NCBI GenBank assembly: GCA_030432235.1
Contig: JAUIHT010000014.1
Span: forward strand, 1-64,000
Length of the DNA: 64,000 bases
Source of the DNA: Verrucomicrobiia bacterium
Lineage (GTDB): Bacteria > Verrucomicrobiota > Verrucomicrobiia > Opitutales > Cerasicoccaceae
Direction of reading: 5' to 3'
Made by a program: the position numbers and the translations under genes. The notes under the pieces were generated by a model. That model did no database searches, was not told where the DNA came from, and saw only the letters and a list, made by a program, of their open reading frames with translations. Positions 40,252 to 61,433 of the stretch are shown in pieces (within the stretch, counting starts at the first letter, position 1; each line of letters opens with the position of its first letter).

Positions 40252-40308
40252 TTCGACCCTATCGAGCAGGCAACTTCAATTGGACAGTTGTCAGATTTTC
40301 AGTGATGA

Positions 40309-40336
40309 AAGCCCGGGCAGTTGTCCGGGCTTTTTT
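40309..40336 (+). terminator. Terminator whose T-run touches the next start codon
   Basis: AAGCCCGG (40309-40316) pairs with CCGGGCTT (40325-40332), loop 8 bases, followed by TTTT and then the ATG at 40337. It fits the end of the PEP-CTERM transcript, but leaves no leader for the sulfatase gene. Confidence 0.75.
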
Positions 40337-41698: not shown

Positions 41699-41706
41699 AC
41701 AGCCCT

Positions 41707-42444: not shown

Positions 42445-45400
42445 CGGAAAGAAACTATTTTAAATTTTCGACCAAACCATTGATTGATATCAACACTTGG
42501 ATCCTCCTCGGGTAAATCTGTATCATTTTGATATTCAGGATAGCGCTGAACCACCGCCTCACACCAAGCTTGAGCACGTACTTCATCAGGGCTATAAGGG
42601 TTAGTGACTTCGCCATAGGCCCGGATAACAAAGGTATCAGAGCGTGCGCTCAGACTGGAGCCTATGGTAGCCAGGATATCAGCTTGGGTAATAAATTTCG
42701 GCGCGAAAGCAGCTCGATTGCTATAGGGGTGCGTTTCAGCATCTCCTCCCCAAACCTTCTGCCGCTCGTAAATGTATGACCATTGCTCCCTCTGAATGTC
42801 GTTGGCCAACTCATCCTGGTTGGTCCAGAAAGTAAGAGAGCCATCATTCACCGGGAAGGCGATTTCCGCACCGTCAGTCCCATCAGATGAAAGTACCGTC
42901 CCGTCGATGGCGGCCTGGAGTGTACCTTTAAAGTGCTCATGTTCGTTACCCGGACCGGTGAGTGGGTTACTGTCATTATTCATGGGGTTATCCACGAGTC
43001 TGCGATTAATGAAATCCGCCATTGAAACAAAGGGGCCTCGCTTACGGACTTCTGCAACGATGTTATGTGCTAGCTGGGCAATCTGCTCCTCACTTAAGGT
43101 TCGATAGCCTTCAAATGCTTCGTTGGGATCGACACCTGATGTTGGACGAGTAAAGCGAGGAAAGCTGGTTTTGAGCGAATTACCAGATGTCTGATGCTCC
43201 GGATCAAAAGCAAGTTGGTTGTTTCCACCTAGAATAGCCCTCCAGGCCTGTTCTGAGGTTGAATTGATATTAAATCCTCCTTCAAGCATAAGACCCGCAG
43301 CTACCTGATCGGGATTCTGCAGATCCTTACTATCATTGTATTTGACGTGCCTTGGGTTGGCAAGAGCTTCAGGCACCGCTCCCGTAGCAGGCACTGAAGA
43401 GAAGAAATACTGGTCCCAGAGCGTGCGGTTAAGCAGGTAAGATACGTCGTAGTAGCCTTCCATATCACGCTGTAAGCCAATTTTATGGCTGTTTTGGTCG
43501 AGAACGTGATCAATACGCGCCAACTGGTATCCCGGAGGAGCGTCATCAAAAAGCGGGCCGGATTCAGGACGTAGCCGAAAGTCCGCCAGACTGTTTCCTA
43601 TCGGATAAGAAGGATAGGAACCAATCAGGGATAAGTTTGCGTGTTGAAGCTGGCCGATCGACAAGATCGGTTGATCCTCGTAAGGGAACTCGAAGAGTAC
43701 CGCGTCTACGGGCGCATTATTAATCCAGTCGTGGCCAAGGCCGGCAGAAGCACGTTCACTGGGACCTTGACCATTCTGAAATTTTTTCCACGGAACGTCG
43801 GTTCCCGCAGTCGCCGTATAAAGAACATTATAATTCCGGTCACGACGAGTTCGTGAAGTCCGTGGGGCACGCATATTTCCCTGAGCAATCCAACGGCTCG
43901 TTAACATGTGCTGATCCGCATTCAACTTTGCATTCGAGTTGTAGCCAGAGAACAACGCCTGCATCAAAAACACGAATGAAGGATCAATATCCGTTGAGGG
44001 GGCCTCCAGCTTGGCAGGCCCTTGCAATACGGACATTTCATCGTTCTTAGCATTTGGATCTACCATGGTTTCCACATGGTTTTTATCAAAGCCTGCCAAT
44101 TGATTGGCTTGATACCATAGACGACTTGCTGTTCGCAGATCGTGAGCCCGATCATTGGTGGGCATCCCGTTCATCCAGTAGTCAACGGGTTCGCCAATGT
44201 ACATGTATAGTTGTCCGCCCCCCCTATTTGCAAAGCTCGACCCTCTGTTTCCATCAGGCCTTAAGCGAAACCTTTTATTGGCTTCATCATTCCCAATCGT
44301 ACTAATTGGAATGGAGACATATGTCGTGTATTTGGGGTCAATATTTTCAAGAATATTGGTTTCATCATAAAGACTTCCCGCTGTAGCATTGGGAAGCGCA
44401 AAAATAAGACTCTGCCCCGGCAGAATATCCGGGCAATTCAATCGAAATCGAATGTAATCATATTGATGACTTCTGATTTCTTTAGAAGTATCTTTCTGAA
44501 AATCAAAGATGCACTTCTTCTCCCAAATTGTTTTCGGCTCGGTTGATTCAGGATTAAACGGATCGTATGCGGGATTATCCTTTTCCACATCGAGGCTTAG
44601 CTGAACATTGTAGTGAGGAAATATACCGACCTCATAATTGCCGCCTCCATCGTAGGGCTCGGGCGCCTTAATGGTAAAATTGTACGGATTCCAAATGATG
44701 ACAACGGGATATAAGTTCATGTTGATGCCATCCCCATCAGCAGGCGTATCATTCGCCCCAATAGCGGGGGCCACCCTAATTCCCATGGAAAAATAGGTGA
44801 TGACAGGGGCAACGCCCACATGATCAGGCGAACCATCTTCCTTGTCGTAAGCCGGACGAACTGGACTCATTGCCATATTACTCAACCCAGAAGTCGACAC
44901 ACGTGTCTGTGCGAAGCTCCTCAGGTGCTTCCATGTGGGAATGCCATAAAGCGTGGTATCCCCGCTATGCGGCACCCACATGCGGTTGGTGTCGGCGGTG
45001 GGATCATCCGGAGCGGGAGCATAGCTCTCGTCAAGCAGGATGGAAAGGTCGCGCTTGAGGCCACCGGCATAGACGTCTGCGATGACGGACTGCGAATGCG
45101 TGGTGAGGTCGTGAAAGCGGTACTTAAGTTGATCTGCAAAATCATCCGGCGACGAGGAGGTAAAGGGCAGGTCCATGCGCTCCTCACTACGAGTCAGCGT
45201 GGACGCCATGGGATTGTACAATGATTCAATGCGGGGCCCGTCGAGCTCGGCAGCGGCGGACGGACCGGTGGCCATCAACTCCACGGCAGTACGGCTGGCA
45301 TTGACGAAGGCGTTGAGCTTGTCCTCGTCTTTGGTGACCAAGGGCAGGTTGGCGCGGGCCTTGACGCCTTCGTCCCCGATCCACCAGGCATAGCGCCCTG

Positions 45401-46094
45401 TCGTCGAGCCGCCATCACCCTCCATTTCAACCAAAGGCGCGACGACATAATCGCTTTCATCCCCCGTGGAGCCAGGGCCTACGAGCATCCGTGCGGGCTG
45501 GCTGCCGCCCATACCTGCGATGGTGATATCCTTGGAAGTCGCGGTGGCGCCGGCCAAGCCGCTGACGGCTGCGCTGGCCGGAAAAGGTATATCCGCAGTC
45601 TCGGGAGCCGAGATAATCTCACCGGAGGCGCCTACATCGGTCGACGGGTTAAAAGAAATGCTTTCGTTACCGCTGACCAGCCAACTCAGCAATTGAGCGG
45701 GCGAGCCGGTCCCGTCCGTATCTACCTTAGTTGGATCGGTGAGGTCGGTCGCGATAGTCTCCGGCGTATCAGCATAATTGGCTGCGATGGAGCTGCCGTA
45801 CACGCCGGTCCAGTAGGCATTGGCCGAGCCCGCACCTCCTTGAAGGTCGGCCCGTGCGGTCACGCGCTGATCCGGCCCGGCATACTTCTGCAATTGACCC
45901 AGGGCGATGCCCAGTGCGGCCAGCGCATTCTGCTGAGCTTCTATTTCCTCGCGGGTATGTGTAGCCGTCTGCGTTTCCAGCGTGGTCAAGGTGGCCAGGC
46001 TGATCACCAGCAACAGCAGCAGCGACATCAGTGCGATGCTGACGATCAAGGCGAAGCCATGACGTTCGGCCAACTGCTGTCTGTTAATAGTCAC
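42420..46094 (-). CDS. Verru_Chthon cassette A-type pilus-assembly-related protein
   Basis: About 1224 residues. Near the N-terminus RHGFALIVSIALMSLLLLLVISLATLTTLETQT is the prepilin-like helix of this family, followed by ALGIALGQLQKYAGPDQRVTARADL, its most conserved segment. The rest is a large extracytoplasmic region. TIGRFAM describes these as very large exported proteins in cassettes with three smaller prepilin-like partners (B, C, D). None of those partners is next to this gene. The GTG at 46094 (VTINRQQLAE) is chosen because the frame to 46193 runs into the GH16 gene; the exact start is uncertain. Confidence 0.8.
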   Translation of the reverse strand: MTINRQQLAERHGFALIVSIALMSLLLLLVISLATLTTLETQTATHTREEIEAQQNALAALGIALGQLQKYAGPDQRVTARADLQGGAGSANAYWTGVYGSSIAANYADTPETIATDLTDPTKVDTDGTGSPAQLLSWLVSGNESISFNPSTDVGASGEIISAPETADIPFPASAAVSGLAGATATSKDITIAGMGGSQPARMLVGPGSTGDESDYVVAPLVEMEGDGGSTTGRYAWWIGDEGVKARANLPLVTKDEDKLNAFVNASRTAVELMATGPSAAAELDGPRIESLYNPMASTLTRSEERMDLPFTSSSPDDFADQLKYRFHDLTTHSQSVIADVYAGGLKRDLSILLDESYAPAPDDPTADTNRMWVPHSGDTTLYGIPTWKHLRSFAQTRVSTSGLSNMAMSPVRPAYDKEDGSPDHVGVAPVITYFSMGIRVAPAIGANDTPADGDGINMNLYPVVIIWNPYNFTIKAPEPYDGGGNYEVGIFPHYNVQLSLDVEKDNPAYDPFNPESTEPKTIWEKKCIFDFQKDTSKEIRSHQYDYIRFRLNCPDILPGQSLIFALPNATAGSLYDETNILENIDPKYTTYVSIPISTIGNDEANKRFRLRPDGNRGSSFANRGGGQLYMYIGEPVDYWMNGMPTNDRAHDLRTASRLWYQANQLAGFDKNHVETMVDPNAKNDEMSVLQGPAKLEAPSTDIDPSFVFLMQALFSGYNSNAKLNADQHMLTSRWIAQGNMRAPRTSRTRRDRNYNVLYTATAGTDVPWKKFQNGQGPSERASAGLGHDWINNAPVDAVLFEFPYEDQPILSIGQLQHANLSLIGSYPSYPIGNSLADFRLRPESGPLFDDAPPGYQLARIDHVLDQNSHKIGLQRDMEGYYDVSYLLNRTLWDQYFFSSVPATGAVPEALANPRHVKYNDSKDLQNPDQVAAGLMLEGGFNINSTSEQAWRAILGGNNQLAFDPEHQTSGNSLKTSFPRFTRPTSGVDPNEAFEGYRTLSEEQIAQLAHNIVAEVRKRGPFVSMADFINRRLVDNPMNNDSNPLTGPGNEHEHFKGTLQAAIDGTVLSSDGTDGAEIAFPVNDGSLTFWTNQDELANDIQREQWSYIYERQKVWGGDAETHPYSNRAAFAPKFITQADILATIGSSLSARSDTFVIRAYGEVTNPYSPDEVRAQAWCEAVVQRYPEYQNDTDLPEEDPSVDINQWFGRKFKIVSFRWLSADEV

Positions 46095-46128
46095 TGTGGG
46101 GGGTATCAAGCGGGCGGAGACGCGTCTG

Positions 46129-48666
46129 TCAGGACGAGCCTTCCGCGGTGTTATCTGCAAGTGTATCCATGCGTTCGGCCAATTGCCAGGCACGGACGTA
46201 ATCTATCTGAAAATAATCGGGCAGGCTGGCTTCGTCGATGTCCTTGGTCGACCAACCGCCCATCTGGACACAGAGGATAACGTAGCCGGGCACATTGCCC
46301 ACTTCCTCGTTTTCCCAGACGCCTTTTTTGACCCCATCGACATACCAGGTGAGTTTGCCCGGTTCCCAAAGCAGACCGAAGACGTGCCAGCCATCCGATG
46401 TCGGACCATAGTAAACCTGGTTGGTGCCCCACTGCTTGTGGTTGGCGCCGTAGCCTCCCCAATGGGCCGCGATATTGTTGCGACCAGGGCCCCACTCCGT
46501 CAGGTGCTCGAAGATATCAATCTCCATCCCCTGGCCGTTCTTGCTGCCGGTACTGCGGCGCTGCCAGACATCCAACCCGCTCTCCGCGCCACGGTCGGGC
46601 ATGAGCCAGAAGGCAGGCCAGAGTCCGCGGGCTGTCGGCGGCTTGAGCCGGGCCTCGATATAGCCGTAGCGCTGGGTCCATTTGTCGTAGGTGGTCAGTG
46701 CGGCAGTCGCGTACTTGCGCGTGGGCAGGTTCGGGTCGTCGTACTGGTGGCCGGGATTGACCTCGCACTTGATGGTCAGGTTGCCGTCCTCCACGCTGAT
46801 GTTTTTCTTGGTGAAACGCTCCAGAGCCCAGTCGGCAGGACCATCCCAGACATAGCGCGTGTTCCAGGTCTCCAAGTCGAGTTGATCGCCGTCAAACTGC
46901 TCGTCTAAAGTCATGACCCAATCGCCTTCCACCGGAGGACGCTCGCCGAGCCAATCCGGCGGCGTGACCGGGGTATCCCGATCCGCAATCGAACTGAAGA
47001 CGTTTTTGTTCTCGCCCTGGTCGGAGCTGCCGAAGGCTTTCAGGTCTTTAATAAGCAACGTGGTTTCCGCTTTGGGATGAACGAGAAAGAGCTGAACACC
47101 GGTTACCTTCCGGGAATCCAGCGGGAAGCCGGGAGCACCGTTGGACTGACCAAAGGTCAGCTGTATGTTTTTCGTCTCACCGGGTTGCAGCTTTTGCACT
47201 TCGGTGTTCCACGGCTCGTTTTTCCAATTGCCGGGATTGTCGACCCGGAGCGCGGCCTGAATGCGGTGAGTGCTTTCATTGGTGACCTCTACTTCGATGC
47301 CTTGAAAGTGCTCAAGGTTCCAGCCTCCCTTCGGGCAGGGGAACTGCACATTCGGATAATTGGTCTTTTCGAGAACAGCCCGTATCGCCTGTTCCTTGCC
47401 CGAGCCCACCACAGAGACCGTGCTGTGATAAGTTTTCAACTGATTGACGCTGGCGCCCTCCGCCAGGTTGAAAAGCTCACCCGATATGGCAGGCGAGTTG
47501 AAGTTTGTACTCGCCGAATCGCTCGATGCCGGGGCCGGGGTGGAAGCTTCTTGAGCCGCCTTGGGCGAAGCGGTACCGACCGGCTTGATGCTTTTGATGA
47601 GAAGCGCACCCTCCGCCTTCGGCTTGTCGACCAGCATCTTGATATTGGCAACGTTACCCGCATCCAGATTGTAGGCAGGCTGCCCGTAGGACTCGCCGAA
47701 GGTAACGGTCACGGTGCCGCTTTTACCGGCCCCGATCCAGGAGGTCTGGCTGTTCCAGGGAGACTTTTTCCAGTTGCCCGGATTGTCCACACGCAGGCCT
47801 ACGCCAAGACTGGTGCTCGTGGTATTGACGACCTCGGCCTGAACTCCGCTGAAGGCGGAAAGGTCCCACTTGCCGCCCATGGGCTTCATATCCACTCCCG
47901 GGTACGAGCCGCTTTTGGGGAACGACATCTTCAGGACAGGTGAGCCGCCCTCATCGGCAATGGAAACGCTGGCGCCGTTCTCCGTTTTGTAGGAGCTGGT
48001 GTCGCTCAGGTTCAGCAAATTCTCCGCGCTTGTTGGCGAAGCGGCCGGGCTCGATACCGTGGCCGTGGAGGCACTACCTCCCTGGGGTTCGGATGCACCC
48101 GCCGGTGCCGAGCCAACGGCACGCAGACCGGTAATCAGTACCTTCGAATCCGCTTTGGGTTTCGCAACAAAGAGCTTCAAAGCGATAACCTTGGCCGGGT
48201 CCAGCGGGTAGCCCGCATTACCATACGATTGGCCGAAGGTAACCGTCAGCGTCTGCTTTGCCCCGGCTGCCAGCCAGACATTCTGCGTATTCCAGGGAGA
48301 GTTTTTCCAATTGCCGGGGTTGTCCACGCGCAGGCCGATATTCAACCGGTTTTCGCTGAGGTTGACCAAGTCCACCTCGACGCCGCTGTACTGCGAAAGG
48401 TCCCAGCTTCCTCCGGGAACGGGGAAATTCAGTCCGGGATAGCCATTGCTTGCAGGGAACGTGACTTGCATCGCAGGCTGGCCGTCGCTGGCCGTCGCCT
48501 GAGCCACGGTGGCTCCGTATTCGGTTTTGAAGGTACCGGGCTCCGCGGTGGCCAAGTCCAGCAACTGCCCTGACGTAGGCGGTGTGGCGGCCTGACACAA
48601 GGCAATGCAGGCGCACCAGGCGAAAAAGGTAACGCTCCGGGAAAGAAAGGGTAATCGTATATGCAT
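46129..48666 (-). CDS. Secreted GH16 beta-glucanase with three N-terminal CBM-like modules
   Basis: 845 residues with signal peptide (about 1-27). Three repeats of about 150-170 residues (30-190, 210-365, 390-560) share LRVDNPGNWKNSPWNTQ and VTFGQSYGNAGYPLDP and look like carbohydrate-binding beta sandwiches found with agarases and laminarinases. The GH16 domain (about 575-825) has GLWPAFWLMPDRG and the catalytic EIDIFE (around residue 712: nucleophile Glu, assisting Asp, acid/base Glu). It cleaves internal beta-1,3 (or mixed) glucan or related galactan bonds outside the cell. It lies 17 bases behind a GH1 gene in the same direction. Confidence 0.9.
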   Translation of the reverse strand: MHIRLPFLSRSVTFFAWCACIALCQAATPPTSGQLLDLATAEPGTFKTEYGATVAQATASDGQPAMQVTFPASNGYPGLNFPVPGGSWDLSQYSGVEVDLVNLSENRLNIGLRVDNPGNWKNSPWNTQNVWLAAGAKQTLTVTFGQSYGNAGYPLDPAKVIALKLFVAKPKADSKVLITGLRAVGSAPAGASEPQGGSASTATVSSPAASPTSAENLLNLSDTSSYKTENGASVSIADEGGSPVLKMSFPKSGSYPGVDMKPMGGKWDLSAFSGVQAEVVNTTSTSLGVGLRVDNPGNWKKSPWNSQTSWIGAGKSGTVTVTFGESYGQPAYNLDAGNVANIKMLVDKPKAEGALLIKSIKPVGTASPKAAQEASTPAPASSDSASTNFNSPAISGELFNLAEGASVNQLKTYHSTVSVVGSGKEQAIRAVLEKTNYPNVQFPCPKGGWNLEHFQGIEVEVTNESTHRIQAALRVDNPGNWKNEPWNTEVQKLQPGETKNIQLTFGQSNGAPGFPLDSRKVTGVQLFLVHPKAETTLLIKDLKAFGSSDQGENKNVFSSIADRDTPVTPPDWLGERPPVEGDWVMTLDEQFDGDQLDLETWNTRYVWDGPADWALERFTKKNISVEDGNLTIKCEVNPGHQYDDPNLPTRKYATAALTTYDKWTQRYGYIEARLKPPTARGLWPAFWLMPDRGAESGLDVWQRRSTGSKNGQGMEIDIFEHLTEWGPGRNNIAAHWGGYGANHKQWGTNQVYYGPTSDGWHVFGLLWEPGKLTWYVDGVKKGVWENEEVGNVPGYVILCVQMGGWSTKDIDEASLPDYFQIDYVRAWQLAERMDTLADNTAEGSS

Positions 48667-48683
48667 GGTTTACTTTATAAGGT

Positions 48684-50096
48684 TTAGGAAAGAATGGCGG
48701 CTTCAGATTGCTCTCGGGCGAGAAAAACAGAGATAGGCTCCTCCAGACTTTCGCCGTTTGTCTTAATGACGTTACGGTACCAGTACGCCGAATCCTTGAG
48801 CGTGCGCTTCTGGGTTTCGTAGTCCACGTGGATGAGTCCGAACCGGTGCTTGTAACCCTCGGCCCACTCAAAGTTGTCCATCACGGACCAATGAAAATAG
48901 CCGCGCACATCGATACCATCGGCCACCGCGTTCTGGAGGCACTGCAAGTAGCGGCGCAGGAAGTCGATGCGCTGATGGTCGGGCACGCTGCCGTCCAGAG
49001 AAACCCAGTCATTGCAGGAAAGACCGTTCTCCGTAATGACGACCGGCAACTTGTAGCGCTCGGCGACAAACTTGGTGCCCCAATAGAGAATCTCAGGCGT
49101 GCGATTCCACAGGAAGTGCGTATGCGGCGAACCCGGAGCAAACGCATCGAGGCTGTAGCCGCCATCGGGCGTGGCGCGGGTGGGATACCCGTGGTACATA
49201 TTGGCACCAAAGAAGTCCAAGGGCTGCTTCATGATATCGAAGTCGCCGGAGTTGATGCGAGGCATGTTCTCCCCGTAGACCCGGATGCCTTCCTCGGGAT
49301 AAGTGCCAAACACAACCGGATCCGCCCACCAGGTATTGTTCCAGAAATTGCCGTCGTGAACCGCGCTCATCGCACGCAAGGCCGCGTCACCATCCGCCGG
49401 TGAGTCGGTGGCCGGGTAGTTGGTGCAAACCATGGGAGCCCAACCGACACTGGGCGTGCGGACGGCGTTGGCCCGTATGGACTGCACCGCGAGTCCGTGA
49501 CCAACGAGGGCGTTGTGCCCGGCTTGCAGCGCTTTTTGCAGAGACAACGCCATGCCGGGCGCATGTTCACCGGATAAATGGCCAAGCCCGATAAAGCACT
49601 GTGGCTCGTTCAACGTCATCCAGTAGGACACGCGATCGGACAAATGCTTCACCACGATGTCCGTGTAGTCGGCGAACCACTTGGGGCTGTCGGGATGCAG
49701 CCAGCCACCTTTTAACTCCAGCTCGTGGGGATAGTCCCAGTGAAAGAGAGTCACCCACGGATCGATGCCGTTTTCCAGAAGGCAGTCGATGAGCCGATCA
49801 TAGAACTCCAGGCCCTTGCGGTTGACGCGGCCCGTACCCTCCGGCATCAGACGCGGCCAGGAAACGGACAGACGATAGGCGTGAAGCCCCATCTGTGCCA
49901 TGAGACTTACGTCGTCGGCGTAACGGTGGTAATGGTCACAAGCGGTATCGCCGGTGTGCCCTTCCCAGACTTTGCCCTGTCGATGACTGAAGGCATCCCA
50001 CACCGACGGGCCTTTGCCATCGGCATTCCAGGCGCCTTCAATCTGATAGGCAGCCGCTGCTGCGCCCCACGTAAAGTTTTCCGGAAATTGTGTCAT
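48684..50096 (-). CDS. bgl: GH1 beta-glucosidase
   Basis: 470 residues, normal for GH1. The acid/base Glu is in TLNEPQ (about residue 163) and the nucleophile in VITENG (about 355). WGAAAAAYQIEGA and the C-terminal YFHWSVMDNFEWAEGYKHRFGL are family signatures. No signal peptide is seen, so it should act in the cytoplasm, releasing glucose from imported beta-linked oligosaccharides made by the GH16 and GH81 enzymes. It is followed at 17 bases by the modular GH16 gene, forming an operon. Confidence 0.95.
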   Translation of the reverse strand: MTQFPENFTWGAAAAAYQIEGAWNADGKGPSVWDAFSHRQGKVWEGHTGDTACDHYHRYADDVSLMAQMGLHAYRLSVSWPRLMPEGTGRVNRKGLEFYDRLIDCLLENGIDPWVTLFHWDYPHELELKGGWLHPDSPKWFADYTDIVVKHLSDRVSYWMTLNEPQCFIGLGHLSGEHAPGMALSLQKALQAGHNALVGHGLAVQSIRANAVRTPSVGWAPMVCTNYPATDSPADGDAALRAMSAVHDGNFWNNTWWADPVVFGTYPEEGIRVYGENMPRINSGDFDIMKQPLDFFGANMYHGYPTRATPDGGYSLDAFAPGSPHTHFLWNRTPEILYWGTKFVAERYKLPVVITENGLSCNDWVSLDGSVPDHQRIDFLRRYLQCLQNAVADGIDVRGYFHWSVMDNFEWAEGYKHRFGLIHVDYETQKRTLKDSAYWYRNVIKTNGESLEEPISVFLAREQSEAAILS

Positions 50097-50139
50097 CTCA
50101 AATGTTAGATCGTTTTGATTAATGCTGACGGGCGAATCC

Positions 50140-51708
50140 TCACTCTCCCATCTGACGATTTTTCACGTCCGGCACCGGGTCCAGTATCTGGTCGGCATTC
50201 TCGAGCCGCTCGCGAAGTTTTTCGTAAGGCACATCCTGCACGTCGCAGTCCTGCTCGAGGGCCAGAACGGCAGCCTCCGCGGCCGACTGAGAAAGAATCA
50301 TAAACACCGGCTCCATACGGATGGAACCGAAAGCGATATGCGAGGCGGCCAGGCAAAACGGAACGAACAGATTGCCGCACTCCCCTCGCTTCGGCACGAT
50401 GCTGCGATAGGAAATCGGGTACGGAGGCCCCGAGGCCACTTCGACATTGCCCTCGTTGAGGACCTTGCCGTCGACAACCACGCGGCGGCAGTTGTGGGAA
50501 TCCATGGTGTAAGCTGCCAGGGCGATCGAGTCGTTCACCGTCTGATGCCCGAGGCAATGATGCTCGGTCATGACCAAATCGCTGATCAATCGCCTCGACT
50601 CACGGACGTACAGAGCATGCGAGAAGCCGCCTGTCGCCACGAACTCATCGCGGCACCACCCGTAAGTGCGCACCTTCTTCTGAAAAGAGGAAGGGATGGA
50701 CGGGTCCGTACACCAGAACCACAAAAGGCCTTTCGTCCAGCGGACATGCTCCTGAAATATTTGCTCACGCTCTGCGTAACCCGCTCCCGGAAAGCGATGG
50801 CTCATGCCGATGTAATCCGTCGAAACCGCATGGCAGTTATTCATGTCCACCTTGTCGTCTCTAAGGTCGTCGAACTTCAAAAAATCAGGGACATGGCCGG
50901 CCCTACAAAAACGCGCCAGCAGCTCATAGTCTTCGGGCTGGTAGTCCGCGGGCTCAGTGAACGGAATTCGGTTTGCCGGATTATCCGTCAGGCACAAACG
51001 GAAGTTGTAAGCCTGCACGCGATCATCGCCCCGTCCCGTAACATGCGGCTCCGGATCGATTCCCGGCAACAGGCCGCTGTCGGGTTTTCCTTCGATGCGG
51101 TACGGATCCACGGGAAGATTGAATTGATGCCCGTGCAATACCTGCGAGCCGTTGTAGTGCTCGCCGTAATCCTGGTTGTCCTCGCGACCGATGGTATGGC
51201 TGACCCCGGCTTTGGCCATGAGGTCTCCCTCATAGCTGGCATCGATGAACATCCTGGCCTCAACCGTAATGCCGTTCTCCGTCGTCAGGCCGGTGATTCG
51301 GTCGCCGCTTGTAGTAACGTCCTTAAGGAAACTTTCAAAATGGCAAGTGATGTCTTCCTCGTCCAACCATTCGGCGTAAACGGACTCGGCCACATGCGGC
51401 TCAAAGAGCCAACATTCCCACTGGTCGTAACGTGCCCCCAGCCGCCGGTAAAATTGACGCGACAGACCGCCAATGGCCTGCTTGTTGCCGATATCGGTGA
51501 AGCTCAAACCGCCCGCAGTGAGCCCCCCGAGATGATAGCCCGGCTCCAGAAGCGCTACGCTCAACCCGTGGCGGCGAGCTGTAATCGCTGCGATGATTCC
51601 ACCCGAATTGGCGCCATACACGCAAAGGTCGACTTCCAATTTAATATTAAGCTTTTCCTCGGGGGGAGAGTAATACCGCAATTTATTTTTGGTAGGGGCT
51701 CCAAGCAT
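50140..51708 (-). CDS. FAD-dependent oxidoreductase (FAD_oxidored family)
   Basis: About 522 residues. The FAD-binding Rossmann motif is LCVYGANSGGIIAAITARRHGLSVALLEPG with GGLTAGGLSFTD; later blocks ARMFIDASYEGDLMAKAG and YRSIVPKRGECGNLFVPFCLAASHIAFGSIRMEP fit PF12831. These flavoproteins are common in sulfatase and glycoside hydrolase loci, with no settled reaction. Possible starts are 51741, 51723 and 51708; the last is favoured, but the first 25 residues look unconserved in any case. It sits 43 bases upstream of GH1, so it probably belongs to the same operon. Confidence 0.85.
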   Translation of the reverse strand: MLGAPTKNKLRYYSPPEEKLNIKLEVDLCVYGANSGGIIAAITARRHGLSVALLEPGYHLGGLTAGGLSFTDIGNKQAIGGLSRQFYRRLGARYDQWECWLFEPHVAESVYAEWLDEEDITCHFESFLKDVTTSGDRITGLTTENGITVEARMFIDASYEGDLMAKAGVSHTIGREDNQDYGEHYNGSQVLHGHQFNLPVDPYRIEGKPDSGLLPGIDPEPHVTGRGDDRVQAYNFRLCLTDNPANRIPFTEPADYQPEDYELLARFCRAGHVPDFLKFDDLRDDKVDMNNCHAVSTDYIGMSHRFPGAGYAEREQIFQEHVRWTKGLLWFWCTDPSIPSSFQKKVRTYGWCRDEFVATGGFSHALYVRESRRLISDLVMTEHHCLGHQTVNDSIALAAYTMDSHNCRRVVVDGKVLNEGNVEVASGPPYPISYRSIVPKRGECGNLFVPFCLAASHIAFGSIRMEPVFMILSQSAAEAAVLALEQDCDVQDVPYEKLRERLENADQILDPVPDVKNRQMGE

Positions 51709-52099
51709 AATTACATACTGCATTAGACCACAAAAAAGCACAAGGGACTTAGCTTCTCGGTTTTGGTCAAATAGTTGTACTTTTTACGCAACGGGTGACT
51801 TTTCTCTTTTTTTAAAGGCATGAAAGGCGTATACAATCCAGCATACCCTGTTTGAGAACACCCCATAAAATGAAAATAAAACTTATACCTACTCTATTCA
51901 TAATAGAGCTATAACTATCTTATTTTCGCTCTTCTTAACTAAAACTGAGTCCGCAACCAATTACCCCGGTTTCGTCATACCAAACTGCCCCACCCTGGTT
52001 GTCTGTCTGACGAACTTCTAGAGCACTAATGCTGCTAGTGAAACCAGCGGCATCATGACTTTACATATTATTTTCTACTAATCCTAACTCATAAATAAT
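51709..52099. other. AT-rich intergenic region between divergent oxidoreductase and GH16 genes
   Basis: About 390 bases at much lower GC than the flanking genes. It must contain promoters for the minus-strand oxidoreductase-GH1-GH16 operon and the plus-strand GH16. I saw no clear operator; the only weak inverted repeat is CACTA...TAGTG at about 52026-52042. No gene or RNA is supportable. Confidence 0.4.
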
Positions 52100-53902
52100 A
52101 TGAAGACTAGAGTACCCCGCAAAACCCCATCGGCATTCACCGTGATGTCGATTTTCATCTACCTTACAGCCTTCACTCTGCTCCATGGGCAACCGACTCC
52201 GCCGATTCAGGGCGACTGGACGCTGACCTTCGAGGACAACTTCAGCAGTTCCGACCTGGACGGCACCAAATGGAAAAACGGCACACACCACTCAGGCATT
52301 GAAGGCGCCGGCGGTAACGACCCCAGCCTCGTAACTATCTCCAGCGGCACGTTGAAAATCAAATCGAGCGTCGATGACATCGTTTACAGTGGAGACAGTT
52401 ATTCCTACTCCACCGGGGAAATCAGTACCTTCGCAAAGTTTACCCAACAGTATGGCTACTTCGAGGCACGAATAAAATATCCGGCCGTACAAGGGCTGTG
52501 GCCCGCTTTCTGGCTCATGCCGGACCGGGGAACCTATGGCAACAAAGACCTCTTTCGTAGAACCTACCTCAAGTTTAACATCAGTAGCTTCAGCGGTTCC
52601 GTAAGCAGTGCCGAGCTTCAGCTCACCATTGCGGGGGGTGAAGTCTCTGCTGACCCTAACAATGTCCTGGTCCTGCCGGTTTCCAATAACTCCTGGTCGG
52701 AAACATCCATTACCTGGAACAACGCCCCAACACCCGAGCCACGCTGGCTGAGTCAAAAGTGGGATATCGATCCAACCGTGGGCAACACCTTGTCCATCGA
52801 TCTCACCGACTATGTAACGCAGGAATACAGCGGTGACAAGGTCGTCTGCCTGTGCCTGGCCGACACATTCATGCTCAGCGAGCTCATACAGTTCTATAGC
52901 AGTGAAACCTCCACGCAGGCAGATCGTCCTAAGCTGGTGATTAACGGCCAGACCTTTTACCCCACCGGCGATTCTACGGTGCGCTGGGGCAGCTATGCCG
53001 ACACCAACTACGGCAACGACACCGTGCTGAACGTCAAGGACGGCTGGGGCAACACGGCCGATACCTTCAACGGCGGCATGGAAATCGACATCATGGAGTC
53101 CCTAGGAGTCTGGGGCGCCAATGAAATCCAGCATGCTGTACACTGGGACGGTTATCAAAGCCAGCACCAGGCCGTCGAATGGCAGGATATCACCTATGCG
53201 GCCACGGGTGATAATTTCCACACCTACGGCATGTACTGGGAAGAAGGACTCCTGGAATTCTACATCGACGGTGTCAATACGGCGACCTGGAACAATTCGC
53301 GCGTCATGAGTGTGCCGGCTTACATCATCCTTTCTCTCCAACTTGGCGGGTGGGATAGCAACAACGTCGGCTCGCAAGTGGACAATCAAGTCATGGAAGT
53401 GGACTATGTGCGCGTCTGGAGCGGTACCAAAACCGGAGGCAGCACTGGCAGCAGTATCGCCGGCACCAAAAACATCATCAACAAGTATACCGACAAGGCC
53501 TTGCGTCCGCTCAACGCCGGTACCGCAAACGATGTGCAAATCGTCCAAAATACTTTGGACAGTTCATGGAGCAGTCAAAAGTGGGACATCGTCGATGTGG
53601 GTGGCGGCTACTACAAGATCGTCAACAACTATACGGGCAGAGCCCTGCGTCCCCTCAATGCCGGTACCGGAGACAATGTCGCAATCATCCAGTACGGCTA
53701 CAACGGATGGGACACACAAAAGTGGGAGTTCCTGGATGCCGGCAACGGATATTACCAAATTCAGAACAAGTATACGGACAGGGTCCTGCGCCCCTACGAT
53801 CCGAGCGGCTCTGGCGGCACAGATGACGATCGGGACATCGTCCAGTACTCCTTGAATACCAGTTGGGACTCGGAGAAGTGGGAGCTCGTCGATAACCCCT
53901 GA
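52100..53902 (+). CDS. Secreted GH16 enzyme with inserted DNRLRE-like module and ricin-type lectin domain
   Basis: 600 residues. A signal peptide (about 1-31) leads into a GH16 domain that begins at residue 36 (IQGDWTLTFEDNFS) and reaches GLWPAFWLMPDRG at 132-144. Residues about 146-325 are then an inserted beta domain with the DNRLRE/CBM96 hallmarks RRTYLKFNIS, SWSETSITWNNAP and DRPKLVINGQ. GH16 resumes at GGMEIDIMES (catalytic Glu328, Asp330, Glu333) and ends near 441. Residues 455-600 are a ricin-B-like lectin with repeats of NKYTDKALRPLNAGT and SSQKWDIVD. It should degrade insoluble beta-glucan. The modular GH16 at 46129 has only a short loop at the insertion point. Confidence 0.88.
   Translation: MKTRVPRKTPSAFTVMSIFIYLTAFTLLHGQPTPPIQGDWTLTFEDNFSSSDLDGTKWKNGTHHSGIEGAGGNDPSLVTISSGTLKIKSSVDDIVYSGDSYSYSTGEISTFAKFTQQYGYFEARIKYPAVQGLWPAFWLMPDRGTYGNKDLFRRTYLKFNISSFSGSVSSAELQLTIAGGEVSADPNNVLVLPVSNNSWSETSITWNNAPTPEPRWLSQKWDIDPTVGNTLSIDLTDYVTQEYSGDKVVCLCLADTFMLSELIQFYSSETSTQADRPKLVINGQTFYPTGDSTVRWGSYADTNYGNDTVLNVKDGWGNTADTFNGGMEIDIMESLGVWGANEIQHAVHWDGYQSQHQAVEWQDITYAATGDNFHTYGMYWEEGLLEFYIDGVNTATWNNSRVMSVPAYIILSLQLGGWDSNNVGSQVDNQVMEVDYVRVWSGTKTGGSTGSSIAGTKNIINKYTDKALRPLNAGTANDVQIVQNTLDSSWSSQKWDIVDVGGGYYKIVNNYTGRALRPLNAGTGDNVAIIQYGYNGWDTQKWEFLDAGNGYYQIQNKYTDRVLRPYDPSGSGGTDDDRDIVQYSLNTSWDSEKWELVDNP
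52535..53074 (+). other. Segment coding for the inserted, apparently permuted DNRLRE-like module
   Basis: Residues 146-325 of the GH16 protein. In ordinary DNRLRE domains the DSTVRWGSYADTNYGNDTVL strand comes first and RRSYLKFD follows. Here RRTYLKFN opens the insert (153-160) and DSTVRWGSYADTNYG closes it (291-305), running on through KDGWGNTADTF into the GH16 catalytic motif. Confidence 0.65.
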
Positions 53903-55112: not shown

Positions 55113-58100
55113 CTAGTTGACCGGGAAGTTGACGGTATTGACCACCATCTTCTTGGGCGCCACCGTCATCGTGCCCGAGACATTGGCTGAGGCCACGGTG
55201 GAGTCCGACGCGAGGCGGTCGAAAGCCGCATAACGGGTGGTCCAACCGGGATTGAAGGCGACGAAGGTGGTGTCCACCGAGAGGCTGTCATCAGCCACCT
55301 TGGAGAAGGCGGCGAGGAACAGGATGGAGCCGTCGTCATCGCTGCCACCATTGTCGGTAGCGCGACCCAGGTAGGTCCAGTCCGGCGTGCCGTAGGCGTC
55401 GAGGGCATGCAGGAAGTGCAAGACCCCCGTGCTGCTGAAGGCCGGTTGACGCGGTGCTTCACGACCGGCTACACCGTCGATGGAGGCCCAGCCAGCCCAG
55501 AGGCGTTTGACGTACGTCTGCAGGTCGCCGCTGAGAGCGGTGCCGTCTTCATTGAGCGGCTCGTCACCGGGATTGTAAGGCACACCGCTAAGGGCGGCGG
55601 TCATGGCCATGCCCAGCCAGTTGCCCGGCTGGAACAGCGCGGTGTCACGCGCCTCGCGCCATTCACTGCGAATGGTGGACCCATAGCGGGCGCGCACGAA
55701 GTCGGAGTGGCGGGTGATGCCCAGGGTCCAGGCCGTCGGCGGGTATGCCAGGATGAACATGGAACCAGTCGGGAAGGCGTAGAAGAAGTTGTTCAACGTC
55801 GGCCCGAACTTACGGTAGAGCGAGATGCCCGGCGAGGACTCCCCACCAAAGTACGGCGGAGCCACGTAGAACGCTTCCCGAGCACCGTCGTTGTAAGAAC
55901 TATTCGCCGGATAACCGTCGTTGTTGCCATTGTTAGGCACCGCGGAGGATTCAATACTGGTGACCGGTATCCAGGAGTACTGGTTCAGCGCATTGTTGTC
56001 CGAGAGGTTGTAGTTCTTGTCAGCGAAGTACATGTCATTGGCCGTCATACCGGTGGCCAACATGTAAACCCCGACATCGGTGAGAGACTTGCGATCCGTA
56101 CCGGCACCCCAGAGGATAGCCGCGCTGTAGGACTGCAAGCCCTCCCAGATGGAGTTCTCGTTCTCGTCGCCATAGGCGAAGTCACCGGTGCCCGAGCTGA
56201 CCGCGACGCTCCACTTGGTCTCCGGGTCACGCAGACCGGCGGGGCCGGGCGAGACACCGGTGGCCCAGCCGTGACCGCCCCACTGGTCGAAGAAGGGCAG
56301 CTTCTGATAGGTGAATTGCGGCACCGTGTAGATGTCGTTGAGCAACTCCGAGTTGTCCGGGTCGTAGGCCACGGAGAGATACCACTGCTCCAGACCGGTG
56401 CCCATCTGACCCGGGTCGGCCCAGAGGTCAGCCGGTTTGCTGGTGATGTTGCTTTCCCACGAGCGGTCGAAGACAGCGGCCCAGCCTGCCACCCCGAGGT
56501 AATACCCGAAGAAGTAGTGCTGGTCATTCCACTGGTCGGAAACCCCAAACCCACTCCAGAGCTTACCGTCTTTCCACTGATTGAGACCGGTCTTGCCGGT
56601 GTTGCCGTCCGGCGTAGGCGGATCGTAAACCGAGCTGACCACGCCGTAGACCGGGATGGTGGCCGAGGGATTGATGACGATGCGCCCGGCGTTGGTATCG
56701 TAGAGGGAGAAGTAACCCATCTTCCATACTTCCGGATCCGTCGGGTTGTTGTGATAAACCGGATCGGCGTGCAGGAGGCTGAGGGTGCGCTGCATCATCT
56801 CGACCGAACTTTCCAGCGCGCCACCGAGGGTGAAGAGCGGGTTGTGGTCGCGCAGGATGGGCAGACCGCGTTCGTAGGTCCACTTGTCATCGTCCGGCCC
56901 GCCGTCCGAGACATAAGCCGTATTGCCCTGGATAAGCGCCCAACGAGTAGCCTCTACGGAAGGCTCGTCCTCCGTCGCATACTTCTGCTGCAAATGGTAA
57001 AGGACGTTGACCCACTTGGTCGCGGCGGAGAGCTGGTTGCCCAGACCGTAACCGTCGGGAGCGGACTTGCCGCCGAAAGCGCCACCGAAAGGCCGCACAC
57101 CGTCGGACATGCCGTTGGTGTACTCGCCGATGACGTTGTCATAGAGTGTCTGCTCAACGTTGATAGTCAGCGGCACCGACTGGGTGAGGAAGCCTGCGCC
57201 CTGGCTGTTGGCGCGCAGCACCTGGCGGTTGTCCACGTCGAAGTACCGCAGATAGAGGCGCCCCGACAGGTCGTTGGTATCACCGGCAAAGTCGGGCAAG
57301 TAACCCCGCTGGGAAATCGGCGTGGGCGGGTCGGGCGGAGGCGGTGGATTGTTGCGGACAGAGGGCGTGCCGAGTGTGCCGTCCCCATTGGGCTGGGCGA
57401 TGATTTCGGCGTAGGGACCGCGGGGCGGGTTGGCGTCGTTGCTGGCGCCGCCGGTAGCGACAAACTCAACATTCACGCTGCTGCTGGGCGCGAAGCCACT
57501 GCCGCCGTCGATAATGTCGATGTGGTCGACCTCTCCTTGGGCATTCACCGTAACGGAGACGGTGGCGTTGACGCCGCTTGGCTCCGGCGCTTTGACGAGG
57601 GCCTGGAAGGTATCTGTGCCGACAGGATAATTGCTGCCCGGGCGCAGGACCTCGACCTCGACGACCACACCACTCTCGTTGGTGGTGGCGCGGGCGGCGG
57701 CATCATGGCCACGACCACCGCGGACCTGGAAGAGCGCTTCGCCCCAGAATCCGCGGCCGTTCTTGACCACGCCGTCTACCTTCTTGTAACCGCCTTCGCT
57801 GGTCGACGTATTGGACGTGTCGATGACAACCAAGCCGTCGGAATCCACGCTCCAGTTGATTTCCGGCATCTCAAAGGTGCCCTCGAATGAACCCGGTCCA
57901 GCCGAACCGCCGGTGATGACCACTTCGACGGACTCGTCATACTGGACCCCGCTGGCGCCACCGGTCAGGTTGACTGTCTGGATGGTGGCGGCCGGATACG
58001 CCCAAGCCACGCAAGCCGTGGTAAAGGTACCCGGAGTATCAAACTGGATCTGCTTGCGGGTGGTGACCTTGGCCGCGCTACCGGCCAGGTCCAAGATGCG

Positions 58101-61100
58101 AATCTGCCCGTCAACCGTGCGCACGATACTCACCTCAATACGCTCGTCGTCGTCGTTGAAATAGTGCGCCCCGGTGGGAAAGACAGTGTAATCGCCGGGT
58201 TCTTCGATCAAAATGCCATAGAAAGTACCACCGCCTATATAATCCATGGTAACGCTGGCGGTAGGCGAAGTGCCGCCACCGGGCGGAGGCGGAATCTCTA
58301 CGGTGATGTTGGCGGCGGTTTCCGCCAGGCTGTCCTTGATGAGTGGATACGCCCCGTTGTTGTCGAAGCCGCCGATGGTGCTGTTCTCAATGGCAAAGAT
58401 TTCACCCGGATTGGTGATGGTGGCCACACCCCCGGTGCCATTGCCAATGATGATGGCGGTGATGGGCTTGGAGGGATCGCCGAAGATGAAGCCGGAGCCG
58501 CCGGTGATGATCTGGGCCTTGCCCGACAGGATGTGATCCGGAGTCGGAGGATCTTCACTGCCACCGCCGAACTGGGGCACCACGATGGCCGGGTCGTAGG
58601 CGTTGTTGCCCTCCTGCGTAATCTGGATGGTGGTGCGGTAGCCGGAGCCCTTGTCGTTCATGAAGACGGCCAGAACGCGACCTTCGCCGTCGGTCTGGAT
58701 GCGGGCGGTGGCCTGGGTGCCGCCGGGCAGCGTGGGAGCATCGATTATCAGCTCACACTCGCTGGTTGGAGGGGGTTCGCCCACCGGGTAACCATAGCCG
58801 GGGCTGAGCACATCCACCTGGAGGATGCGGCCGGTGTAGGGCTCGAGCAAAACCTTGAACTCGGCTCCGCTGCCCTGCTTGTCCGCGCGATAGTCGTGCA
58901 GGATGGCGTTCACGGGAGCCGTTATTTGGGTGTAGCTCTCCAAATCGCCGGAGAGGACGACCTGCTGGATACCGGACTGCTGGTAGTTCTCCTCCCACTT
59001 GGGCGGGGGCATGGCGGGCAGGAAGTTCTGGAAGGGATACTCCACCGTAAAGCTGCCGGTGACAACCGACTTGAGGTTCCCGCGGGGGTGCCAGTACTCC
59101 CAGCGCGAGGGCGCGTCGGGATTGTTCTTGTTGGCATTGGTCGGGCCGGCCACGGCAGGGAAGTCGATGCCGGTAGTCTTGAGCGGCTCCCACACGACCT
59201 GATCGCGGGAGCCCTTGGTCAAGTCCGGCCCGAGGGTGATAGGCTGGTACTGGTGTGGCATCAGCGCCCAGACGGACTTGTCCTGATCGACCGTCATGGC
59301 GGAGGCGTTAGGCGCCCCGGCCACGGCATAGGGATTCTGGTAAGCCGAATCGAAGTGGGTAGTGACCTTGTACATGTTGGTCACGTCATAGGTGATGGCG
59401 GTGTCACCAAGGAAGTTGAAGGCATACTTGCCCATTTCATTGGCCCAGGCACGGGCGGCATCATCACGATCCGCCTTGGAGTCACGCGTGACCCCGGTAT
59501 GGTAATAGCGCATGACGGGCACTTCGCCGACCACGAACCAGTTCTTGCCGGTTTCGTTGAACTTAAGGAAGAAGTACGGGTTGCCTTGAGTATCCGTACC
59601 GCTGTTGGAGTCGGTAACCGTCTCCACGGTGTCAGTGCGGTAGAAGACGGCGAAGTAGGTGTGGTTGTCCACCGTGCCGGGAGGATTGAAGCCGCCGGGC
59701 AGAACCCTGTCCGGGTGGTTGACCGGGTCGGGCCGGTAGTTGAACTCCGGATCGACCTCCATGAACCACTGATTGGGATTACTCTGGTTGCCGTAAAGGA
59801 GCATGTAGCTGACGCCATCGACACCGGGCACCTCCCAGGGGCCACCCGCAATCGTGCCGGCATCCGTACCCGTGTTGTTGTCGAGGGAGTCCTCCAGGTT
59901 CTGACGGATGAGGTTGTAGAATATCATGTAGCGATCCGTATCCGCGCTATCCGTGCGGCTGGCGTTGAACTCGCACCAGATGAAGGGCGAGCCCTGGGCC
60001 ACGGTCATCTTCAGGTAGTTGCCCTTCCCTTCCTGGCCATAGCTGGTGCGGCGGTAACGATAGTTATCGTAAGCGGGATCGGTGGGATTGATCCCCTCCC
60101 AGACCAGGTCGGCGTGCCAGTCGCCCATCTTATCGGTCTGAATGGCGAAGGGGGTTTGCAACTGCGGGCTCAGGTTCGAGTTGAAGACCGGGTAAGGGAA
60201 TATTTCATGTTCCGGCGTCGTAGCGGAGCCAACATTGTTCCAGTCGCCTTCCGTAAGCAGTGTGTCGGGAGGGAGAACTGAAGGCACCATGAGGAGGGTT
60301 TCGAGTGGGCGCATCTTGATGCGCAGCCAGGACTCCTTCCAGGCGTTCGGATAGTCGCTGCCCGGCCCGAGGTCGACGTAGTTGCCATATTGGCAGAAGT
60401 AAGGGTAGTTAGGCGAGATATTCACGCCGCGGACGATTTTCTTGACCTTGTAGTACTTGGCCTCGCCCTCGAAACGCTCCATCGGCTGCGTCTCGTAGCC
60501 GAACTTACCCGCGGGCCAGTTGTAATTCAGGCGCAGAGGCTGCATGTAGAGAGGCTGCTGGTCCACACGCACGGGCGTCCAAGATCCTCCGTCGATGCCC
60601 TCCGTGGGCGTGTACTGCCAAACATAGAAATCCCAGGGGGTGACGCTGGGATCCAGAGGATCCTTGTAGGGATAGCCGGCGTAGTGCCCCGGGGGCGGTG
60701 TGCCGTTACCCCAGAGGAACCAACCCATCCAGCTACGCTTTTCCGGGCGGTAGGATTTGCCCTCGTATTCGGCAAGCAGATTTGGGGTGAAGGAAACCTG
60801 ACTGGCCCCGACCACGCGCGGATACTTGCTGTTCTCCTCGGCATCGTTGGTGTCGCTGACCGGCGGATTCAATTGATACACGTAAACGTTGACCAGCGGA
60901 TCGATGCCATCCCAGGCAGCTCCCACCCCGGCGCCGACCTCGATCTTGGCCGTCACATCAGGAGTGTAGGGAATAACAAAGGCCAGGCGGTAGAAGACGG
61001 GCTGGTCTTCATCATCAATGTCCTGGCGATAATTGAATACCGTGGTCTCGTCAGGATCGCGAATGCCAATGGCCGTGCGCAGGACATCCGTCCAGTCGTC

Positions 61101-61433
61101 GCTCTGCATCGTATTGGTCTTCTCCATGGTGATGGAGACGCCCGAATCGATGTCCTCATAGAGACGATAGACGAAATAGTTGCCCATCTCGGTCTGCTCC
61201 ATACGCGGACCGACATCCTCCACGGAGTCCGGCACGAGGGGATTCGTACCAAAGACGAACTCCAGCCCGTTCGGGTAGGTGTCGTTGTCCGGGTTATAGG
61301 TGGGCCCTTCCTGACCGACAGGAAAAGTAAAGCCCTCGACCCATTCTGCATAGGTGAGGGCTTTGGCGATTGGTGCGCATAGCAAAAACGCACACAGGAG
61401 ACCGGCGCAATATAGCTTATTGGATGTTTTCAT
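55113..61433 (-). CDS. Giant secreted GH81 endo-beta-1,3-glucanase with inserted repeat region
   Basis: 2106 residues with signal peptide (about 1-25). Residues 25-300 include a Verrucomicrobia-type exported-protein module (YPNGLEFVFGTNPLVPDS). The GH81 N-terminal beta-sandwich is recognisable around 430-530 (GNYLKMTVAQGSPFIWCEF). The catalytic (alpha/alpha)6 domain lies at about 1400-1850: WNDQHYFFGYYLGVAGW (about 1633, proton-donor Asp region) and FFDQWGGHGWATG with the later NENSIWEGLQSYSAAILWG (about 1761, base Glu region). Between them (about 860-1390) is a long repeat-rich stretch. GH81 enzymes cut beta-1,3-glucans such as laminarin. Residues beyond 1850 form further beta structure. It is by far the longest gene here. 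Confidence 0.85.
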   Translation of the reverse strand: MKTSNKLYCAGLLCAFLLCAPIAKALTYAEWVEGFTFPVGQEGPTYNPDNDTYPNGLEFVFGTNPLVPDSVEDVGPRMEQTEMGNYFVYRLYEDIDSGVSITMEKTNTMQSDDWTDVLRTAIGIRDPDETTVFNYRQDIDDEDQPVFYRLAFVIPYTPDVTAKIEVGAGVGAAWDGIDPLVNVYVYQLNPPVSDTNDAEENSKYPRVVGASQVSFTPNLLAEYEGKSYRPEKRSWMGWFLWGNGTPPPGHYAGYPYKDPLDPSVTPWDFYVWQYTPTEGIDGGSWTPVRVDQQPLYMQPLRLNYNWPAGKFGYETQPMERFEGEAKYYKVKKIVRGVNISPNYPYFCQYGNYVDLGPGSDYPNAWKESWLRIKMRPLETLLMVPSVLPPDTLLTEGDWNNVGSATTPEHEIFPYPVFNSNLSPQLQTPFAIQTDKMGDWHADLVWEGINPTDPAYDNYRYRRTSYGQEGKGNYLKMTVAQGSPFIWCEFNASRTDSADTDRYMIFYNLIRQNLEDSLDNNTGTDAGTIAGGPWEVPGVDGVSYMLLYGNQSNPNQWFMEVDPEFNYRPDPVNHPDRVLPGGFNPPGTVDNHTYFAVFYRTDTVETVTDSNSGTDTQGNPYFFLKFNETGKNWFVVGEVPVMRYYHTGVTRDSKADRDDAARAWANEMGKYAFNFLGDTAITYDVTNMYKVTTHFDSAYQNPYAVAGAPNASAMTVDQDKSVWALMPHQYQPITLGPDLTKGSRDQVVWEPLKTTGIDFPAVAGPTNANKNNPDAPSRWEYWHPRGNLKSVVTGSFTVEYPFQNFLPAMPPPKWEENYQQSGIQQVVLSGDLESYTQITAPVNAILHDYRADKQGSGAEFKVLLEPYTGRILQVDVLSPGYGYPVGEPPPTSECELIIDAPTLPGGTQATARIQTDGEGRVLAVFMNDKGSGYRTTIQITQEGNNAYDPAIVVPQFGGGSEDPPTPDHILSGKAQIITGGSGFIFGDPSKPITAIIIGNGTGGVATITNPGEIFAIENSTIGGFDNNGAYPLIKDSLAETAANITVEIPPPPGGGTSPTASVTMDYIGGGTFYGILIEEPGDYTVFPTGAHYFNDDDERIEVSIVRTVDGQIRILDLAGSAAKVTTRKQIQFDTPGTFTTACVAWAYPAATIQTVNLTGGASGVQYDESVEVVITGGSAGPGSFEGTFEMPEINWSVDSDGLVVIDTSNTSTSEGGYKKVDGVVKNGRGFWGEALFQVRGGRGHDAAARATTNESGVVVEVEVLRPGSNYPVGTDTFQALVKAPEPSGVNATVSVTVNAQGEVDHIDIIDGGSGFAPSSSVNVEFVATGGASNDANPPRGPYAEIIAQPNGDGTLGTPSVRNNPPPPPDPPTPISQRGYLPDFAGDTNDLSGRLYLRYFDVDNRQVLRANSQGAGFLTQSVPLTINVEQTLYDNVIGEYTNGMSDGVRPFGGAFGGKSAPDGYGLGNQLSAATKWVNVLYHLQQKYATEDEPSVEATRWALIQGNTAYVSDGGPDDDKWTYERGLPILRDHNPLFTLGGALESSVEMMQRTLSLLHADPVYHNNPTDPEVWKMGYFSLYDTNAGRIVINPSATIPVYGVVSSVYDPPTPDGNTGKTGLNQWKDGKLWSGFGVSDQWNDQHYFFGYYLGVAGWAAVFDRSWESNITSKPADLWADPGQMGTGLEQWYLSVAYDPDNSELLNDIYTVPQFTYQKLPFFDQWGGHGWATGVSPGPAGLRDPETKWSVAVSSGTGDFAYGDENENSIWEGLQSYSAAILWGAGTDRKSLTDVGVYMLATGMTANDMYFADKNYNLSDNNALNQYSWIPVTSIESSAVPNNGNNDGYPANSSYNDGAREAFYVAPPYFGGESSPGISLYRKFGPTLNNFFYAFPTGSMFILAYPPTAWTLGITRHSDFVRARYGSTIRSEWREARDTALFQPGNWLGMAMTAALSGVPYNPGDEPLNEDGTALSGDLQTYVKRLWAGWASIDGVAGREAPRQPAFSSTGVLHFLHALDAYGTPDWTYLGRATDNGGSDDDGSILFLAAFSKVADDSLSVDTTFVAFNPGWTTRYAAFDRLASDSTVASANVSGTMTVAPKKMVVNTVNFPVN
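57260..58850 (-). repeat. Glycine-rich repeat region inside the GH81 protein
   Basis: Coding for about residues 860-1390. Degenerate units built on (G/S)G(Y/F/N)-x-(P/V)-x-G followed by beta strands recur, for example PGYGYPVGEPP, NDKGSGYRTT, TGGSGFIFGDP, RPGSNYPVGTD and DGGSGFAPSS, together with ATARIQTDGEGRVLAV-type strands. They look like a stack of small beta modules separating the two GH81 domains. Confidence 0.6.

Follow-up and report, generated by a model that had tools for sequence, protein, structure and literature searches.

A circularly permuted CBM96-derived module within the catalytic domain of a GH16 enzyme lineage

A split GH16 domain in the 52100-53902 protein

A GH16 catalytic domain that breaks off at an active-site loop and resumes some 180 residues later raises the questions of what fills the gap, how it got there, and what it does. 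Such a domain is encoded by the open reading frame at 52100..53902 on the positive strand of a 64,000-nucleotide stretch of Verrucomicrobiia DNA (contig JAUIHT010000014.1, positions 1 to 64,000; hereafter the window). The predicted 600-residue protein has a signal-peptide-like N terminus, the split GH16 domain with a permuted CBM96-like insert, and a C-terminal ricin-B-type trefoil (approximately residues 454-596, 53459..53887, positive strand; PF14200, 51 bits; 3pg0, 3vsf), which is a second candidate sugar-binding domain. The reading frame, residue numbers, and motifs given in a preliminary description of this locus all agreed with our rereading of the sequence.

The GH16 sequence begins near residue 36, continues to GLWPAFWLMPDRG (residues 132-144), and resumes at GGMEIDIMES (residues 325-334). 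Its first part (residues 36-143, 52205..52528, positive strand) ends in the strand GLWPAFWLMPDR and was delimited by alignment with empty-loop GH16 enzymes, by the family alignment, and by the AlphaFold2 model. The second part (residues 325-441, 53072..53422, positive strand), delimited by the family alignment, begins with the catalytic strand GGMEIDIMES, whose E328, D330, and E333 (ExDxxE) are invariant in all 32 insert-bearing proteins described below. The insertion site is thus the GH16 loop that links the WPAFW strand to the catalytic EIDIME strand. In the paralogous GH16 at 46129..48666 on the negative strand, which served as the empty-site reference in alignment and tree, this point is occupied only by the short loop DRGAESGLDVWQRRSTGSKNGQGMEIDI, as previously noted for this gene, and the alignment revealed a short loop in the other empty-loop homologues as well. 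Three similar repeats of ~170 residues precede the GH16 domain of that paralogue, with only borderline matches to Agarase_CBM and NPCBM_assoc.

A Pfam scan of the whole protein found CBM96 in two stretches (99.3 bits, cutoff 26) and GH16 in two stretches. When the insert was cut out in silico, GH16 was recovered as one stretch scoring 86.4 bits, as opposed to 68.3 bits in two (PF00722, cutoff 22). The beta-jelly-roll is known from prediction only, with Foldseek matching the model to GH16 laminarinases at TM values of 0.7 to 0.8 of the target. By all sequence and predicted-fold tests made, the host protein is a GH16 enzyme, presumably a secreted endo-beta-glycanase. Of the WPA...WPX motif that characterizes GH16_3 and GH16_1, the protein has the WPA, the WPX loop being replaced by the module, and it does not conform to this type.

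The insert is one domain in permuted order

The ~180 residues that separate the GH16 parts make up one complete CBM96/DNRLRE domain whose order is circularly permuted. In the scan of the source genome with Pfam CBM96 (PF24517), the insert gave two separate matches, first to model positions 37-163 (the main segment, 52547..52945, positive strand; 82.3 bits) and then to positions 3-39 (52949..53056, positive strand; 27.5 bits, E value of 8.7e-6, over the cutoff). The latter, DSTVRWGSYADTNYGNDTVLNVKDG, is the transposed N-terminal segment, and the permutation opens the chain between canonical strands 2 and 3. The preliminary description had proposed that joining the end of the insert to its start would restore a canonical domain, and this proved correct. 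The rejoined insert matched Pfam CBM96 in a single stretch (7-163/164) with 117.2 bits, compared to 108.1 bits in the native order, and the NCBIfam DNRLRE score rose from 89.3 to 102.1 bits; by either model, the native order was the poorer fit. Rejoining had a similar effect in three paralogues from the same genome.

A control model was built only from 42 canonical-order domains, all of them located outside the GH16 loop concerned. This model detected the swapped order in 32/32 inserts and favored the rejoined form in 30 of them (on average, 127.2 versus 107.9 bits). The transposed tails scored 9.4 to 31.8 bits with it, whereas none of 640 shuffled tails exceeded 7.4 bits. A profile of the 32 inserts produced a crossed match when compared to solved structures: residues 17-48 of 8wab corresponded to profile positions 139-170 and residues 53-186 to positions 7-138, so that the domain was covered exactly once. 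The insert scores over the PF24517 cutoff but departs from the strand order of the solved CBM96 members. We therefore refer to it as a CBM96-derived module and not plainly as CBM96.

Two matches in swapped order could also be truncated leftovers of tandem CBM96 domains. Tandem CBM96 is common in these phyla, and the trimming of a pair would be a plausible route of origin. However, the model is covered once, with an overlap of at most a few residues, in all 32 members, and the insert alone was predicted by AlphaFold2 as one well-formed domain, not two truncated ones (pLDDT of 92.9, pTM of 0.89). Confidence was low only in about the last ten residues, at the join to GH16, and less so in the first ten. 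Residues 36-441, modeled with the family alignment, reached a pLDDT of 95.3 and a pTM of 0.91. The best PDB matches of the predicted insert were the CBM96 modules 7vbo and 8wab (Foldseek E values of 8e-6 to 4e-5), and its beta-sandwich, known from prediction only, is that of CBM96. Because the pieces cover the domain once, we read the insert as one permuted domain; the view that it comprises two truncated domains was rejected on the once-only coverage in the 32 members and is very improbable.

The insertion is shared and has a single origin

The insertion had been described for the 52100-53902 gene. It is real there but not unique to this gene. Three further copies occur in the source genome, and at least 32 distinct proteins were found to share the architecture and the break point; they come from Verrucomicrobiota, Kiritimatiellota, and, in a few cases, Planctomycetota. 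Of 88 genomes from the same order, 8 contained a total of 16 full-length matches, and 388 genomes sampled evenly from the phylum yielded 10 matches in 7 genomes. Among the matches listed are Cerasicoccus species, a member of the Opitutaceae (Rariglobus), a Spartobacteria isolate, a Kiritimatiellae MAG, a Phycisphaerales MAG, and two Planctomycetota MAGs. In Planctomycetota the architecture is rare (2/343 genomes in one draw, the Phycisphaerales genome coming from another).

These homologues also bear on the integrity of the contig. An assembly error or a chimeric contig was considered, and nothing was found in its favor. Since the break point is the same across all 32 distinct sequences in the alignment, misassembly is excluded. 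The search for homologues with a shared break point recovered both junctions in many independent assemblies, and a 73%-identical protein is present in genome G007, at a locus matching Cerasicoccus frondis (L035). With the three same-genome paralogues, the homologues in other assemblies led us to reject misassembly, the least probable of the explanations considered.

In a tree of the catalytic domain from which the insert columns had been removed, all 32 insert-bearing sequences formed one clade (support 100/99), adjacent to a clade of empty-loop enzymes that contained the GH16 at 46129 in the window. When the rejoined inserts were placed in a tree with the 42 canonical domains, they again formed one clade (98/96). 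A single clade in both trees points to one ancient insertion that was stably inherited. Pairwise identities of the insert and of GH16 were correlated (r = 0.82) about as strongly as those of the two GH16 halves (r = 0.79). On these sequence comparisons, the module was acquired a single time and has since been passed on together with the catalytic domain.

Several features of the family members deserve mention. Permuted-insert GH16 genes occur in tight clusters of two and three (G000:C34:204894-209413 and G001:C1:4080963-4088296), which suggests diversification within one locus. In three genomes, such genes have GH16-like neighbors (L143 at G000:C34:209623-210375, L155, and L156) with a degenerate WPAFW strand and a replaced acid/base Glu (GMEMDIVRHQ, GMEMDVVRQL, and GMEMDVVYHL, respectively); judging from these motifs, they are probably non-catalytic GH16 relatives. 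The L027 protein (G005:C4, an 811-residue frame) combines the permuted insert with a CBM96 in canonical order close to the C terminus and offers a natural within-protein comparison. The L003 and L004 proteins have C-terminal tandem repeats (GVAGTDWRTGTGYLMYSEEDTATRFTAFSGNADH...), where a Pfam scan of the L004 protein found no match. Finally, RR.T in the empty GH16 loop resembles RRTYLKF of the module, and D.F is found at both junctions. An origin by microhomology might be read into these very short resemblances.

Junction and groove residues

Both junctions have residues particular to the permuted family. At junction 1 (TYGNKDLF, 52532..52555, positive strand), Tyr146 is kept in 30/32 members. 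At junction 2 (DGWGNTADTFN, 53039..53071, positive strand), position 316 is aromatic in every permuted member, whereas canonical domains mostly have Gly, Ser, or Asn. Asp255 and an aromatic residue at position 216 are likewise specific to the permuted family.

In TM6-N4, the founding CBM96, the alginate-groove residues are K10, K22, K25, K27, K31, R36, and Y159 (PMC9971899). By alignment, K22, K25, K27, K31, and R36 span strands 2 and 3 and their hairpin. Most of these contacts are changed in the 52100-53902 protein (K10 to W, K22 to T, K25 to N, K31 to N, and Y159 to L). Only the equivalents of K27 and R36 remain, the latter being Arg in 12 of the 32 permuted members. Given these changes, alginate binding by analogy with TM6-N4 is not supported; with most contacts altered, alginate is not the expected ligand.

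Possible role of the module at the active site

The GH16 loop that separates WPA from the catalytic strand lies at the negative subsites (PMC6827312). The earlier placement of the insert in an active-site loop is in keeping with this position, as the loop borders the negative subsites of the cleft. There, the module could serve as a wall or roof for these subsites in a secreted endo-beta-glycanase. The permutation would select which face of the module is turned to the active site. It is the opened hairpin of strands 2 and 3 that joins GH16, so the permutation is expected to turn the groove-bearing side toward the active site. The groove of the module and the catalytic cleft could then make one extended chain-binding channel, with Tyr146 and Trp316 at the junctions as candidate sugar-stacking residues. 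Sugar binding by the module, including the earlier suggestion of glucan bound over the cleft, and the substrate are inferences.

We consider it fairly probable that the module extends or roofs the negative subsites of an endo-beta-glycanase, likely acting on a beta-1,3-type glucan, with the permutation setting its orientation and Tyr146 and Trp316 stacking against sugar. Against extended subsites speaks the loss of most CBM96 alginate-contact positions, and against sugar stacking the fact that conserved aromatics could be packing at a domain interface. A stronger version, that one ancient insertion of a permuted CBM96 founded a GH16 lineage with a two-domain composite active site, in which cleft and groove form a continuous channel, is put forward more tentatively.

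Alternatively, the module could act as a lid. In the beta-glucosidase RmBgl3B, a PA14 insert for which sugar contact was not found was considered responsible for the failure to cleave longer substrates (PMC6987092), and the permuted module has lost most of the known CBM96 sugar-contact residues. On the other hand, family-specific aromatics are present at both junctions, and several members carry extra modules, including the canonical CBM96 of L027, as is typical of polymer-acting enzymes. A lid seems unlikely to us, less so than a further alternative in which the module functions as a targeting CBM in its own right, merely tethered via the loop, and the permutation is a historical accident with no role. 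The CBM58 of SusG and the CBM4 modules of GH10 xylanases were concluded to be independent targeting CBMs: Xyn10C-like enzymes retain catalysis when their inserted CBMs are removed, and no hydrogen bonds connect CBM58 with its catalytic domain (PMC7848910). The confident fold predicted for our insert alone is consistent with such independence. However, the loop adjoins the catalytic residues, the break point is unvaried in 32 proteins, and the junctions have family-specific residues; tethering alone is thus quite improbable.

Relation to known enzymes

The module belongs over cutoff to the same family as the CBM96 members (PF24517, NF033679), among them the alginate CBM of Dp0100 (7VBO) and a chondroitin-sulfate CBM (8WAB), and is predicted to have the same beta-sandwich with all strands. 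It differs from them in that it is permuted, sits inside a catalytic domain, and has most alginate contacts changed. The host shares its fold, the ExDxxE motif, and the WPAFW strand with laminarinase-like GH16 endo-beta-1,3-glucanases (4DFS, 4BQ1, and 3ATG) but has an entire domain in place of their WPX loop at the negative subsites.

CBM36 and CBM60 modules are separate units, linked end to end and not inserted into a catalytic domain. A natural circular permutation between these two carbohydrate-binding modules has been described (Montanier 2010, as cited in PMC4725902). The present module is likewise permuted but sits in a catalytic domain. Other secreted glycanases with a CBM inside the catalytic domain are the Xyn10C-like GH10 xylanases, with an inserted CBM4 pair, and the GH13 enzyme SusG, with CBM58 (PMC7848910); their folds, loops, and CBMs differ from ours, and permutation was not reported there. 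The PA14 domains of the GH3 beta-glucosidases KmBglI and RmBgl3B are likewise inserted beta-domains that shape the active-site pocket (PMC6987092), but these are unpermuted, belong to other families, and serve an exo-acting pocket. GH16_20 xyloglucan endo-hydrolases have a lengthened loop ahead of the EXDXE strand (PMC6827312). This is the same loop, extended only as a loop and not to a whole domain. In the open-access literature, searches covering CBM96 and GH16, permuted CBMs, and GH16 domain insertions found no description of a CBM both inserted and permuted. Insertion and permutation are each known for CBMs on their own, and their combination appears to be undescribed.

If our reading is correct, the lineage represents a natural case in which a binding module is an integral part of a glycanase active site and not an appendage, and in which permutation decides the module face that meets the catalytic cleft. 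For enzyme engineers, it provides a naturally kept break point in a CBM96 domain, and the empty-loop relatives in the same genomes offer a clean test of the effect of an inserted CBM. Automated annotation describes the lineage as partial GH16, CBM96, and partial GH16. A study of GH16 subfamilies regarded sequences as fragments, and excluded them, when they covered <95% of the family model (PMC6827312). The lineage may have been lost from the subfamily scheme through this coverage filter, and such filters possibly hide this Verrucomicrobiota enzyme lineage.

Gene neighborhood and substrate

The neighbors of the 52100-53902 gene in the window encode a GH1 enzyme, the second GH16, and a protein with a weak, below-cutoff match to the GH81 C-terminal domain. 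This company suggests a beta-1,3-type glucan as the substrate. However, two sibling genes lie beside sulfatases, and one sulfatase is encoded within the window. The GH81-like protein (55113-61433, negative strand) is a secreted-type protein of 2,106 residues without a solved relative and is possibly a divergent giant endo-beta-1,3-glucanase. The 40211-51741 region of the window and G000:C34:188001-216400 each contain genes for GH16, GH1, a FAD_oxidored protein, sulfatases, and large unannotated proteins, and are perhaps duplicated polysaccharide-use clusters.
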